DNA from: Actinoallomurus sp.
GTDB taxonomy: Bacteria; Actinomycetota; Actinomycetes; Streptosporangiales; Streptosporangiaceae
Direction of reading: 5' to 3'
DNA: 50,842 nucleotides
NCBI GenBank assembly: GCA_025964625.1
Contig: JAOPYL010000257.1
Span: 1-50,842 of the forward strand
The notes below the pieces were generated by a model that did not search any database, was not told where the DNA came from, and saw only the letters and a program-made list of their open reading frames with translations. Both the position numbers and the translations under genes were made by a program. Positions 45,689-50,665 of this stretch are shown in pieces (the first letter of the stretch is position 1; every line of letters begins with the position of its first letter).

Positions 45689-47206
45689 ATGGCCGATTTC
45701 GTCGGAGCCGTTGACCAGGGCACCACGAGCACCCGTTTCATGATCTTCGATCACTCGGGCAACGAGGTGGCGAAGCACCAGCTCGAGCACGAGCAGATCA
45801 TGCCGCAGCCCGGATGGGTCGAGCACGACCCGACCGAGATCTGGGAGCGCACGCGGTCCGTCATCGGGACCGCGCTGCGCAAGGCGAACCTGACCGCCGC
45901 CGACCTCGCGGCACTCGGCATCACCAACCAGCGCGAGACCACCGTGGTGTGGAACCGCCGCACCGGACGGCCGTACTACAACGCGATCGTGTGGCAGGAC
46001 ACCCGTACCGACCGCATCGCCTCGGCGCTGGACCGCGACGGCCGCGGCGACGTGATCCGCGAGAAGGCCGGGCTGCCGCCGGCGACGTACTTCTCGGGCG
46101 GCAAGATCCAGTGGATTCTGGAGAACGTCGACGGGGTGCGTGAGGCGGCCGAGGCGGGAGACGCCGTCTTCGGCAACACAGACAGCTGGCTGCTGTGGAA
46201 CCTCACCGGCGGAGTCGGCGGCGGCGTGCATGTCACCGACCCGACCAACGCCAGCCGCACGATGCTGATGAACCTGGAGACGCTGGACTGGGACGACGAG
46301 CTGCTCTCCTTCTTCGACATCCCGCGGCGGATGCTCCCGGAGATCCGGCCGTCGTCCAACCCGCACTTCTACGGGCTCACGCTGGCGAACGGCCCCCTCG
46401 GCGGCGAGGTGCCGCTGTCCGGCGATCTCGGCGACCAGCAGGCGGCGACCGTCGGGCAGGTCTGCTTCGCTCCCGGCGAGGCCAAGAACACCTACGGCAC
46501 CGGCAACTTCCTGCTGCTCAACACCGGCACCGAGCTGGTGCGGTCCAAGAACGGGCTGCTCACGACGGTCTGCTACCAGTTCGGCTCCGAGCGGCCGGTG
46601 TACGCGCTGGAAGGATCCATCGCGGTCACCGGGTCGGCCGTGCAGTGGCTGCGCGACCAGCTCGGCATCATCTCCGGGGCCTCGCAGAGCGAGGCGCTCG
46701 CCCGCCAGGTCGACGACAACGGCGGCGTCTACTTCGTGCCCGCCTTCTCCGGCCTGTTCGCGCCGCACTGGCGGTCCGACGCCCGCGGCGCCATCGTCGG
46801 ACTCTCCCGCTACAACACCAACGCCCATCTCGCGCGGGCCACGCTCGAGTCGATCTGCGACCACACCCGCGACGTCGTCGAGGCGATGCGGCAGGACTCC
46901 GGCGTCGCCCTCGACGTGCTGCGCGTCGACGGCGGCGTGACCGCCAACGAGCTGTGCATGGAGATGCAGGCCGACATCCTCGGCGTGCCGGTCTCCAAAC
47001 CGATGGTCGCCGAGACCACCGCGCTCGGCGCGGCCTACGCCGCGGGCCTGGCCACCGGGTTCTGGCAGACGACGGACGAGCTCCGGCAGAACTGGAACGA
47101 GGCCCGGCGCTGGCAGCCACAGTGGAGCGACGAGCAGCGCGCCTCCGGCTACGCCGGCTGGAAGAAGGCCGTGAACCGCACCCTCGACTGGGTCGACGTC
47201 GACTGA
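45689..47206 (+). CDS. glpK: glycerol kinase (copy 2, operon with glpF)
   Basis: 505 aa, the standard length. Motifs are '[18 protein letters not shown]', '[13 protein letters not shown]', '[12 protein letters not shown]', '[12 protein letters not shown]', '[20 protein letters not shown]' and '[20 protein letters not shown]'. Ribosome site AAAGG precedes the ATG. It forms glycerol 3-phosphate and is translated with the facilitator. No glycerol-3-phosphate dehydrogenase gene follows, unlike gylCAB. A strong hairpin at 47286 ends the operon. Confidence 0.96.
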
Positions 47207-47285
47207 CCCATCCGTCCGATGGCGGCGGCGGACCGTCCACGGCACGCCGCCCGCCCGGATGCGTCGCTGACCGGGCCCGCCACCG

Positions 47286-47322
47286 GGTCGGGCCTCGCAC
47301 CCATGCGGTGCGAGGCCCGACC
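47286..47322. terminator. bidirectional terminator between glpK and peptide gene 1
   Basis: Perfect 16-bp stem (GGTCGGGCCTCGCACC / GGTGCGAGGCCCGACC) with a 5-nt loop, 80 nt past the glpK stop and 32 nt past the stop of the minus-strand peptide gene. Its core GGGCCTCGCACC is repeated in the terminator of peptide gene 2. Confidence 0.8.
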
Positions 47323-47354
47323 GGCGTGACCGGCTGCCGCTGACTCGTCGACTC

Positions 47355-47594
47355 CTAATCGTCGTCGTCGTCGTCAAAGAAGAAGTTGTTGTCACAGCAG
47401 CCACAGCAGCCACAGCCGCCACAGCCGCCACCCCAGAAGAATTGGCCCGCCAGGCTCTGAGGTGTGCCGGTCGCAGGGGCGCTGGCTGGAGCGACGGACG
47501 CACTGGCGTGGGACGCCGCACCAAGCATGAGCGCTGCTCCACCCGCGAAGGCCGCGCCGGAGATGACGAGTGCGAGCCGCTTCGGAATTCCCAT
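47355..47594 (-). CDS. secreted Gly/Cys-rich acidic-tail peptide 1
   Basis: 79 aa from ATG 47594 with GGGAGGTAG upstream. Residues 1-33 are a Sec signal peptide (PKR, hydrophobic core, AxA site near 'ASHASA'). A linker 'APATGTPQSLAGQFFW' follows, then 'GGGCGGCGCCGCC' (six Cys in 13 residues) and a tail 'DNNFFFDDDDDD'. The Cys and Asp parts are encoded by trinucleotide-type repeats (a run of GTC on the plus strand near 47358-47376). No known family. A tandem paralog follows at 47950-48165. Could bind metal at the cell surface or be a precursor peptide; neither is shown. Confidence 0.75.
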   Translation of the reverse strand: MGIPKRLALVISGAAFAGGAALMLGAASHASASVAPASAPATGTPQSLAGQFFWGGGCGGCGCCGCCDNNFFFDDDDDD

Positions 47595-47780
47595 GGAAAC
47601 TACCTCCCTGTTCGTCTTCCTGACGTGGCACCTGACTGCCACGCCGAGCAATTTGGGGTATTTCCTGCCCCATCGCCTACATTCCACATCACATGCTCCG
47701 AGTGTCAGAATCAATACTGACAAGCAGGTATATACGCCCTTTTGACTAGGATCGGATGGTTCGAAAGGACGGCTTTAAGC
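47595..47780 (-). promoter_or_regulatory. duplicated upstream region, copy 1
   Basis: The 185 nt before peptide gene 1 align with the 185 nt before gene 2. Block A (47649-47680) carries CAATTTGGGG...CCCCATCGCCTA with a GGGG/CCCC hairpin. Block B (47710-47750) is ATCAATACTGACAAGCAGG followed by TATATACGCC. An outer motif GGACGGCTTTAA starts at 47767. Block B is the likely promoter, block A a leader element. Together with the terminator of gene 2 this accounts for the 355-nt gap 47595-47949. Confidence 0.6.
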
Positions 47781-47885
47781 AATCGCTCATCAGGGCGACG
47801 CCGAGTCGTGCGGCGCGGGATCCCTGATACGGGACGGCCCGCGCCCTCCTCGCCGGGGACTCGCGGAGAAGATCCGTCATGAGAT

Positions 47886-47916
47886 GGGGCCTCGCACCAG
47901 CTCGGTGCAAGGCCCC
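47886..47916 (-). terminator. terminator of peptide gene 2
   Basis: GGGGCCT/AGGCCCC and GCACC/GGTGC stems around AGCTC with one mismatch, 33 nt past the stop. Its sequence matches the core of the hairpin at 47286-47322, so the terminator was duplicated with the gene. Confidence 0.7.
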
Positions 47917-47949
47917 TCGGGTGTTCACCGGTCCTCTGCCGGCCGGCGC

Positions 47950-48165
47950 TCAGCACCAGTCGCAGTCGTTCCAGTCGTCGGAGCAGCCGCCGCCGCAGCC
48001 CCCGGTGAAGATCTGGTCGACGAGATGCTGAGGTGTGCCGGTCGCCGGCGCGCCGGCCGGAGCTGAGACGGCGGCACCCGCAGGGGCCGCGCCGGCTGTG
48101 AGCGCCACTGCGCCCGCGAAGGCCGCGCCGGAGACGGCGAGTGCGAACCGCTTGGAAATGCCCAT
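47950..48165 (-). CDS. secreted Gly/Cys-rich acidic peptide 2 (paralog of peptide 1)
   Basis: 71 aa from ATG 48165 with AAGGAGGTAA upstream. The signal peptide 'MGISKRFALAVSGAAFAG' matches 'MGIPKRLALVISGAAFAG' of peptide 1, and the linker 'APATGTPQHLVDQIF' matches 'APATGTPQSLAGQFF'. The C-terminal core differs: 'TGGCGGGCSDDWNDCDWC', four Cys with acidic and Trp residues. Conserved leader with variable core recalls exported bacteriocin or RiPP precursors, but these have a Sec signal and no modifying enzyme lies nearby. Function unknown. Confidence 0.75.
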   Translation of the reverse strand: MGISKRFALAVSGAAFAGAVALTAGAAPAGAAVSAPAGAPATGTPQHLVDQIFTGGCGGGCSDDWNDCDWC

Positions 48166-48352
48166 CGAAATTACCTCCTTGGGTCGCCTTCTTGACGTGA
48201 CGCGGGACTGTCGTGCCGGGCAATTAGGGGCGCTTTAGGCCCTATCGCCTAATCCCAGGTGACATGCCGCAGCCATCGAAATCAATACCGACAAACACGG
48301 ATATGCGAGGTCTTGACCACGTTTGGAGGGGAACGAGGGGCGGCTTTAAAAC
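48166..48352 (-). promoter_or_regulatory. duplicated upstream region, copy 2
   Basis: Block A at 48221-48252 (CAATTAGGGG...CCTATCGCCTAA), block B at 48281-48318 (ATCAATACCGACAAACACGG then ATATGCG) and an outer motif CGGCTTTAAA at 48341, all at the same distances from the ATG as in copy 1. The remaining part of the 462-nt gap up to 48627 belongs to the upstream side of the universal stress protein gene; apart from a weak DosR-box-like sequence near 48516-48529 I see nothing there. Confidence 0.6.
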
Positions 48353-48627
48353 AAGTCCTACCGGGCGGGAGACCAGGTCAGGCCGACGTAGATCATTACC
48401 TGGAATGCCGTCATCGTCCACCATGGCGGAAAGCCGTGGCCCCAGTGTCGGCGGCCACTCGGGCCGGCCGGCCGGAACCGCGATCCTTCACCTGCTACGG
48501 CCGGCCGGTGCTTACAGGACCATCGGCGCACCGTCTGAGACCTTCCGGCCCTGAAATCGGCTCCGCTCCTTCGCTGTGCTGGAGATGTGGGGAGGTCACC
48601 GCGGCAAGCGGCAGGAGGGGACTCGGC

Positions 48628-49494
48628 ATGAACGCGATCATCGTGGGAGCAGACGGATCGGACCACAGCCTGCGTGCGATCGAGTGGGCCGCCGAGGAGG
48701 CGGCGCGACGGGGGCTGGCCCTGCGGATCGTGAACGCCGCGGCCCCCTGGCTGTACGACACTCCCATCGACCCACGGCTCGGAGCCGTGCGCAAATGGCT
48801 GCTCACCAGCGGTGAGGAAGTAATCGCGGAGGCCATCGCGGTCGCCCGGGCACGGGACACCGACCTCGACGTGGACGGGGAGGCCGTGCCGGGGGGCGCC
48901 GCCCGGGCACTGCTGGAGAGGGCACGGGACGCCTCCATGGTCGTGGTGGGCAGCCACGGGGTCGGCACGGTCGCGGGTCTGCTGCTCGGCTCGACGGCGC
49001 TGCAGGTGGTCACCCACGCCCCGGTGCCCACCGTGGTCGTACGCCATCTCGAGCCGGTCGCACGGCAGGAGATCGCCGTCGGTGTGGACGGATCCGCGGT
49101 CGGAGAGGCGGCCCTCGGCTTCGCCTTCGAGGAGGCCGGCCTCCGCAAGGCACGGCTGCGGGTGATCCACGTCTGGTCCGACCCCCGCTCGGCCGGGCTC
49201 GGGGAGATGATGCCGCTGGTCTATGACCCGGGGATCGTCGCGGAGGATCAGATTCGCCGGCTCGGCGAGTCGCTGGCGGCCTGGCGGGAGAAGTACCCGG
49301 ACATCCAGGTCGTCTCCGAGGTCGTCCACGGACGCCCGGCACGGGTCCTCGCCGGTGCCTCCGCCCGCGCCGATCTTCTGGCGGTCGGCACGCGCGGGCG
49401 CGGCGGCTTCGCCGGCCTGCTGCTCGGTTCGGTCAGCCACGGCCTGCTCCACCACGCGCACTGTCCCCTGGCCGTGGTGCCATCCGGACCCTGA
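48628..49494 (+). CDS. tandem universal stress protein (two USP domains)
   Basis: 288 aa from ATG 48628 with CAGGAGGGG upstream; the frame is open further 5' without support. Two USP domains (about 1-143 and 149-288), each with the ATP-binding pattern G-x2-G-x9-G-S: 'GSHGVGTVAGLLLGSTA' and 'GTRGRGGFAGLLLGSVS'. Both thus look ATP-binding. Tandem USPs of this size are typical members of the mycobacterial DosR dormancy regulon (for example Rv2005c, Rv2623). The neighbourhood with an Acg-like nitroreductase and a DevR-like regulator fits. Confidence 0.94.
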   Translation: MNAIIVGADGSDHSLRAIEWAAEEAARRGLALRIVNAAAPWLYDTPIDPRLGAVRKWLLTSGEEVIAEAIAVARARDTDLDVDGEAVPGGAARALLERARDASMVVVGSHGVGTVAGLLLGSTALQVVTHAPVPTVVVRHLEPVARQEIAVGVDGSAVGEAALGFAFEEAGLRKARLRVIHVWSDPRSAGLGEMMPLVYDPGIVAEDQIRRLGESLAAWREKYPDIQVVSEVVHGRPARVLAGASARADLLAVGTRGRGGFAGLLLGSVSHGLLHHAHCPLAVVPSGP

Positions 49495-49593
49495 GCTGGA
49501 CCGGTGCGGCCGGCGGGCCGGGGCACGGCGCTGACGACCCTGTCCCGAGGAGGTTCCGGCCTCCGCCGGGTTCCCGGTCCGAGGTCCCTGGTC

Positions 49594-49613
49594 GTCGGGA
49601 CCTTCGTCTCTGC
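49594..49613 (+). promoter_or_regulatory. DosR/DevR-box-like site upstream of the Acg-like gene
   Basis: GGGAC (49597-49601)-CTTC-GTCTC (49606-49610) matches 9 of 10 core positions of the DosR consensus half-sites GGGAC-N4-GTCCC. It lies about 60 nt before the start codon. It partly overlaps a perfect inverted repeat AGGTCCC-N8-GGGACCT (49582-49603). Confidence 0.45.
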
Positions 49614-49669
49614 TCCGCCGAAGACCGTGAATGGTGCGCTGAAGACCTACCGAACGACGAGGAGCGATC

Positions 49670-50665
49670 ATGGATACCGCGAGCACCCCGGAGGAGGAGA
49701 AGGTCGCGCACTTTCTCGTCGACGCCGCGGTGTGGGCGGTGTCTGTCCACAACACCCAGCCGTGGTGGTTCGGCACCTGCGGTTCGACGGTGACCGTGCA
49801 CGCCGACGCCGACCGCCGGCTGGAAATCGCCGACCCGGATGGCCGGGAGATGCTGATCAGCTGCGGGGCCGCGGTGTACACACTCCGTCTGGCCGTGTGT
49901 CACCTCGGCCACCTGCCGGACGTGCGGATGCTGTCCGACCCCGAACGGCCAGGAGAGGTCGCCCAGGTGGGCGTCGGACCGCCGTATTCCCCCACCGCCG
50001 ACGAGAGGCAGATGTACCCGCAGATCCGGCGCCGGCGCGGTCACCGCGGCGGATTCCGGCCCGGCGGCCTGCCGGCCGGGCTGCTGCAGATATTGCGCGC
50101 GCAGGCCTACGCGGAGCGCGTGTCGCTGCGCATCGTGGCGGACCCCAGGGCGCGGATCGCGCTGGCCGCCCTCACCGAGGCAGCCGAGCAGATCCAGCGG
50201 CGGAATCCGGTGTACGCCGCCGAGGCGGCCCGCTGGGCGCCGGCGTCCGGCGGCGACCGCCCGGACGGGATGGACGGCGATGCGTACCCGCGAGAGTCGG
50301 CGCGCATCGACCCGCACTTTGCCGGAGGGCGCGACTTCGCGCGAGGTCAGGGCTGGGGCCGGACGGATGGCGAGCGGCAGGAGGCGACCGGGGTCGTCGC
50401 ACTGCTGGTCACCGATCAGGACGGACGCGCCGACTGGCTACGGGCCGGACAGGCCCTGCAGCGGATCCTGCTGTGCGCTGCCGTGCATGACGTGGCGGCC
50501 GCCTTCCACACCCAGGCGCTGGAGATGCCGGACCTCCGGGAGCTGATCCGGACCCGGTTCTGCGACGGCGCCTGTCCGCAGATGATCATGCGCCTGGGCG
50601 TCGCCCATGTCGAGGCCGGGGGCGCACGGCGATCCGTCACCGAGCTTACGAGAGGGGAGCTCTGA
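49670..50665 (+). CDS. Acg-family nitroreductase-like protein
   Basis: 331 aa, the same length as mycobacterial Acg (Rv2032). 'AVWAVSVHNTQPWWF' is the FMN-phosphate-binding start of nitroreductase-fold Acg proteins; 'LEIADPDGREMLISCGAAVYTLRLAV' and 'VVALLVTDQDGRADWLRAGQALQRILL' are also characteristic. Acg proteins bind FMN but are internally duplicated and occluded, and are thought to store or sequester flavin under hypoxia or dormancy instead of reducing nitro compounds. GAGGAG precedes the ATG. Convergent with the DevR-like gene, 19 nt apart. Confidence 0.9.
   Translation: MDTASTPEEEKVAHFLVDAAVWAVSVHNTQPWWFGTCGSTVTVHADADRRLEIADPDGREMLISCGAAVYTLRLAVCHLGHLPDVRMLSDPERPGEVAQVGVGPPYSPTADERQMYPQIRRRRGHRGGFRPGGLPAGLLQILRAQAYAERVSLRIVADPRARIALAALTEAAEQIQRRNPVYAAEAARWAPASGGDRPDGMDGDAYPRESARIDPHFAGGRDFARGQGWGRTDGERQEATGVVALLVTDQDGRADWLRAGQALQRILLCAAVHDVAAAFHTQALEMPDLRELIRTRFCDGACPQMIMRLGVAHVEAGGARRSVTELTRGEL

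Follow-up and report, generated by a model that had tools for sequence, protein, structure and literature searches.

Two small minus-strand genes, A (47355-47594, 79 aa) and B (47950-48165, 71 aa), lie in tandem in the 50,842-nucleotide stretch of Actinoallomurus DNA analysed here as a whole (the window), where each is a copy of one complete cassette for expression and export. By every search made, their products appear to belong to a new protein family, which combines a conserved signal peptide with a changing core. Both proteins carry a Sec signal peptide, predicted from the form of the sequence and from a modelled helix (residues 5-24), followed by the linker APATGTPQ and a core, GGGCGGCGCCGCCDNNFFFDDDDDD in A and GGCGGGCSDDWNDCDWC in B; positions 47358-47435 (minus strand) encode the variable Gly/Cys/Asp core of A. 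Gene A was identified by this architecture and by its match to the family profile (E 9.8e-27), gene B by the translation of its open reading frame, its profile match and synteny. The tandem pair, the linker, the Cys- and Asp-rich cores and the duplicated upstream blocks and hairpins are all present, on the minus strand, as the first-pass annotation had described them, but the signal peptides that it called near-identical share 20 of their 32 residues.

Each copy has its own upstream block, 5' leader, ribosome-binding site and terminator-like hairpin. The two units share two blocks repeated in direct orientation, one of 96 nt (80% identity) and one of 80 nt (75%), at a single constant offset of 571 bases. 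Their ribosome-binding sites, AGGGAGG for A (47603-47609, minus strand) and AAGGAGG for B (48174-48180, minus strand), are near-perfect and start about 15 bases ahead of the ATG. The hairpin located after the stop codon of A (47286-47322, minus strand) has perfect 16-bp arms and folds at -47 kcal/mol in a 53-nt context (z -7.6 against shuffles); that of B (47886-47916, minus strand) folds at -30 kcal/mol (z -5.5). As no U-run follows either of them, both are called terminators by form and position. The post-stop hairpin is kept after the orthologs, and for one of them the alignment shows a C-G pair replaced by U-A, a compensated change. The retention of individual control sequences by each copy, proposed earlier, is borne out by the upstream element and leader that each possesses, and this layout suggests that each copy is transcribed alone.

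The upstream element is bipartite, TAAAG-N26-GTCAA, and is found at 47742-47777 for A and 48313-48348 for B (both minus strand). In most paralogs, an element of the form TAAAG-N26/27-GTCAA starts about 176-185 bases before the ATG. A relaxed TAAAG/GTCAA pattern, drawn by eye from the same sequences, occurs in 16 of 25 upstream regions, compared with 0.19 in shuffles. The strict form TTAAAG-N26-28-GTCAA is present exactly twice in the 5.84-Mb window genome, ahead of A and ahead of B. In the eight genomes together, the looser form matches 14 times, in 9 cases ahead of family members; the others are probably background, since a control with the pattern reversed yields about as many scattered matches. 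Two other candidates were rejected: a WhiG-type promoter pattern has no match in 25 upstream regions of this family set and 36 of a sister genus, and an early candidate motif, GTTGATT...TGTCA, failed likewise.

Between this element and the ribosome-binding site, the leader RNA of A (47622-47685, minus strand; z -3.8 for the trimmed leader) forms two hairpins, P1, located about 85 bases before the ATG, and P2, directly after it. In the leader of B (48194-48256, minus strand), P1 is intact and P2 is partly broken. Over ten leaders, 86% of the cells pair in the named structure, against 26-37% in slid versions, a generous control because the structure was named from single folds of the same sequences. 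Eight pairs are changed on both sides, with 13 such cells against 5.3 in shuffles. Leaders outside the alignment show further P1 stems, picked by eye (GTCGCA/TGCGAC, TGGGAC/GTCCCA, CTCAGA/TCTGAG and CTCGGGG/CCCCGAG), all located at -80 to -88 except one at -115. P1 is the firmer part of the structure, since P2 of B is partly disrupted and the B leader, folded as a single sequence, does no better than shuffles. RNAalifold predicted no structure from the raw 17-sequence alignment, probably as a result of differences in stem length and register; the covariation is seen in the trimmed alignment with the named structure. Within the genus, a covariance model recovers nothing but leaders of the family, each of which had been in its training set; scoring covered 150 of several thousand first-look candidates per genome. 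Positions 46900-48700 have no Rfam match up to E 1.

The profile search recovers members in all eight examined genomes of the genus, with 2-5 matches each. In addition to A and B, the window genome has one more clear copy (C324) and another that is more distant (C125). Of 343 genomes of the taxonomic family, 22 match, and matches that are both strong and multiple are found in three genera. A draw of 395 genomes from the class gives only weak matches; these come from one other family and depend mainly on the signal peptide. Indeed, the profile searches rest largely on this part and can miss the same architecture elsewhere. A plasmid collection contains no match. The earlier statement that no known family has this architecture agrees with searches of Pfam (scan of A, B and three relatives), NCBIfam, Rfam and PDB, which return no match, and a literature search for a matching family yielded nothing relevant. 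Neither of the two signs that the first-pass annotation had named as telling against its proposal, a lack of homologs or cores decayed by frameshifts, was found: homologs occur throughout the genus, their cores change in frame and their reading frames are kept open. Related architectures were also seen in the surroundings of the family. Other genera of the taxonomic family (L083, L084) encode exported Asp/Tyr/Trp-rich and Gly/Phe-rich low-complexity chains; at L103:6860-7420 the same kind of signal peptide is joined to a collagen-like repeat and one more domain, and in L047 such a signal peptide, together with a CC motif, is fused to a protein resembling, by its sequence motifs, beta-lactamase-type serine hydrolases.

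The genomic location of B is conserved. Its orthologs occupy the same neighbourhood in four relatives (G002, G003, G005 and G006), in the order glpF-glpK-glpD-peptide/universal stress protein/Acg-type oxidoreductase (from glpK on in G003). The window locus matches this order except that glpD is absent between glpK and A (47206-47355). The conserved neighbour at 45689-47206 (plus strand) is, from its translation and its synteny, taken to be glycerol kinase. On the other side, a universal stress protein gene, also a conserved neighbour and divergent from B (48628-49494, plus strand), belongs to the same cluster as a gene of locus L051 (Pfam Usp), and is followed by a gene for an Acg/Rv3131-family FMN-binding oxidoreductase (49670-50665, plus strand; NF047509, 264.6 bits for a cut-off of 199). 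In G001, G004 and G007, a copy also lies beside the stress-protein cluster; the other paralogs are situated in unrelated places of the genome. Besides members of the Acg/Rv3131 and Rv1733c families, which score above the curated cut-offs, the cluster encodes two universal stress proteins, a response regulator of the NarL type and a GAF protein. Such gene types belong to the mycobacterial DosR dormancy regulon (PMC5309233). A DosR-regulon-like cluster occurs here outside mycobacteria, next to glycerol genes (window 48628-50665; L051:10197-14684). For A and B, these surroundings are a location and not proof of shared control, since no DosR box was found for either gene: the window holds 4 one-mismatch matches to GGGAC-N4-GTCCC against 6.0 expected, and the one at 48204-48217 falls inside the B leader and is not conserved. 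Control of A and B through a DosR box is therefore not supported by the window scan.

In a sister genus, the family is expanded into arrays. Three genomes carry family genes head to tail, 11 in L094 (6031-15095), 12 in L098 (6562-15868) and 10 over two contigs in the third (L096, L097). These genes share a common signal peptide, and their cores are poly-Gly/Ala, poly-Asn, or His/Asn/Gln-rich with a RIIVINRNNN motif; several of the proteins have in common a His-rich stretch, RIIVINRNNNFSRSD and a Gln-rich tail, and the far end of the arrays encodes Asp/Cys/Trp cores resembling those of A and B. The pair GTTTY...GGGGA/GGGAA is present in 32 of 36 array upstream regions, mostly at -175 to -195, compared with 0.4 expected in shuffles. 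This is the form of Streptomyces SigB-family promoters, in which the GTTT motif is more conserved for sporulation-specific sigma factors (PMC8346170). Nearly every array gene is thus preceded by a promoter of the SigB/SigF type, which suggests that, at least in the arrays, a sigma factor of stress or sporulation controls the genes one by one. This promoter type belongs to the sister genus and is not found upstream of A or B.

The two parts of the protein evolve differently, as the first-pass annotation had supposed in contrasting a conserved export leader with a variable Cys core. Among the four orthologs of B, the signal peptide has a dN of 0-0.02 for a dS of 0.07-0.25, and the mature part a dN of 0.04-0.12 for a dS of 0.22-0.37. 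Three species keep an identical 18-residue core, WWGCGWDCCDDWDDWDWC, and the fourth has a longer in-frame form. Between G001 and G004, all 96 nt of signal-peptide DNA are shared and the cores are rearranged in frame. The cores are composed of GGC, TGC/TGT, TGG, GAC and TTC codons, a make-up that would favour in-frame slippage. The leaders of A and B are 69% identical, and 63-72% identical to copies of other species; for the signal-peptide DNA these values are 78% and 75-78%. As the divergence between A and B equals that between species, their duplication is old rather than recent and both copies have been retained for long. The tree does not show whether A is a local duplicate of B. An unlinked copy in G006 ends in FFFDDDDDDCD and resembles A, through either shared descent or convergence.

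In 25 mature chains, delimited by a simple A-x-A cleavage rule, Cys is 9.7 times, Trp 7.6 times and Gly 1.9 times as frequent as in the average of the neighbouring proteins, and Leu, Val, Ile, Glu and Arg are low. All 25 members have at least one Cys and three aromatic residues, the number of Cys not being always even. Acidity, by which the peptides had first been defined, does not hold as a family property, as net charge ranges from -8 to +6. AlphaFold2 gives the signal helix (residues 5-24) and otherwise no confident fold, with low confidence throughout (mean pLDDT 52.7), as is expected for such low-complexity sequence; this counts as weak evidence.

Composition, export and the lack of partner genes point tentatively, with somewhat less than an even chance, to a family of secreted, unfolded, disulphide-capable peptides that would form a surface or coat material crosslinked through disulphides and aromatic residues. 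The promoters of the sister-genus arrays, similar to those of sporulation sigma factors, also speak for this reading. Each cassette runs from its own promoter region through a structured 5' leader, a strong ribosome-binding site, the Sec signal peptide, the short linker and a changeable low-complexity core to a terminator-like hairpin. The protein would be exported and its signal peptide cut off near the A-x-A site suggested by its form. The remaining chain, of about 34-73 residues, has no predicted fold; it is rich in Gly, Trp/Tyr/Phe and Cys, and in most members also in Asp. Outside the cell, the Cys would oxidise and the aromatics stick, so that a layer or gel of crosslinked chains would build up on the surface of hyphae or spores. 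Secretion, crosslinking, surface location and timing are all putative here; the existence of the family, its conservation, cassette structure, leader covariation and composition are observed. Since a core of this kind would have to keep its composition and not its order, it could expand and contract in frame while the export and control parts stay fixed.

Several observations count against a coat material. The proteins have neither a sorting signal nor a lipobox, i.e. no cell-wall anchor, their Cys do not add up to an even number in every member, and the SigB/SigF-type promoter of the sister genus is absent ahead of A and B. Sortase anchoring through the PATG/PVTG string was rejected, as the string comes directly after the signal peptide and is not followed by a hydrophobic tail, and the sequences lack a C-terminal LPXTG/LAXTG followed by a hydrophobic segment and a positive tail. 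Chaplins (PF03777), the surface amyloids of Streptomyces, are likewise multi-copy, small, Sec-exported, Cys-bearing proteins of filamentous actinomycetes, but A, B and three relatives show no PF03777 match or conserved chaplin domain, and the cores of the family are low-complexity and hypervariable. True chaplins are separately present in all eight genomes of the genus, so the family is no chaplin replacement and a second coat system has to be argued for. In most genomes of the genus there are also ORFs of about 525-620 aa that each contain several chaplin domains, in some cases as many as six or more (e.g. G001:C22:361233-362168 and G002:C12:164465-165424).

A low-complexity core can also evolve under little constraint, which again tells against a coat. 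One alternative is that of near-neutral tails on a retained leader, the cores being slippage products of GGC/TGC/TGG/GAC codons with no function of their own. The cores do consist almost wholly of these codons and change by in-frame steps; however, the open frame, the Cys and aromatic content and the control region are kept in eight species and many paralogs, and the identical core of three species is hardly expected of such tails, which makes them very improbable.

A better surviving alternative, although unlikely, is that of secreted metal-binding peptides, in which core Cys and Asp would capture a metal ion outside the cell and the cores would differ in preferred ions or sites. Cys in every member, the Asp-rich tails of A, of a G006 copy (G006b) and of B and its orthologs, and the His-rich relatives of the sister genus are all consistent with it. 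However, some paralogs reach a charge of +6 and have almost no Asp while their aromatics stay high, and no metal transporter or metal sensor recurs beside the genes examined. Bacterial metallothioneins such as SmtA and MymT are small and Cys-rich like these proteins, but they are cytosolic, whereas the A/B family is predicted to be exported, is Trp/Gly-rich and has no metallothionein match in Pfam or NCBIfam. Antimicrobial or competition peptides, with a constant export leader and fast-changing active cores as in arms-race gene families, would account for the layout and the tandem expansion; they are nevertheless quite improbable, as cores of the window type are mostly strongly acidic, which typical membrane-active peptides are not, and the B orthologs of three species keep one core. 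Furthermore, the neighbours of family genes are glp genes, stress proteins, regulators and transport genes, and among the neighbours of the copies examined (Pfam/NCBIfam, conserved locus and one array) there is no recurrent gene for immunity, for a dedicated transporter or for a modification enzyme. Precursors of RiPPs or signalling peptides, cut from their leader by a dedicated enzyme, are scarcely probable: several RiPP families, e.g. prochlorosins, do join one conserved leader to many hypervariable cores, but here the leader is an ordinary Sec signal peptide, the copies are scattered over unrelated places, and no RiPP or other modification enzyme is found among the identified neighbours (conserved locus and one array, covering part of the copies).

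As a kind, the family stands closest to the multi-copy surface proteins of actinomycetes and to gene families with conserved leaders and variable cores. This so far unnamed exported family has an upstream element and a leader RNA of its own, is genus-wide and is expanded to arrays in another genus. The covarying hairpin of its leader is, taken by itself, a candidate for a new cis-regulatory RNA. The family might, on a wider and rather doubtful reading, yield an open-ended set of exported low-complexity Trp/Cys/Gly/Asp polymers, made from one copied regulatory-export cassette with a structured leader RNA and selected for composition, not order; such polymers would be a bacterial counterpart of the sticker-and-spacer structural proteins of silks and adhesives. 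The members are small enough to be synthesised and tested one by one. If selection acts on the composition of their cores rather than on the order, the family would be a natural experiment in the evolution of bacterial extracellular materials.
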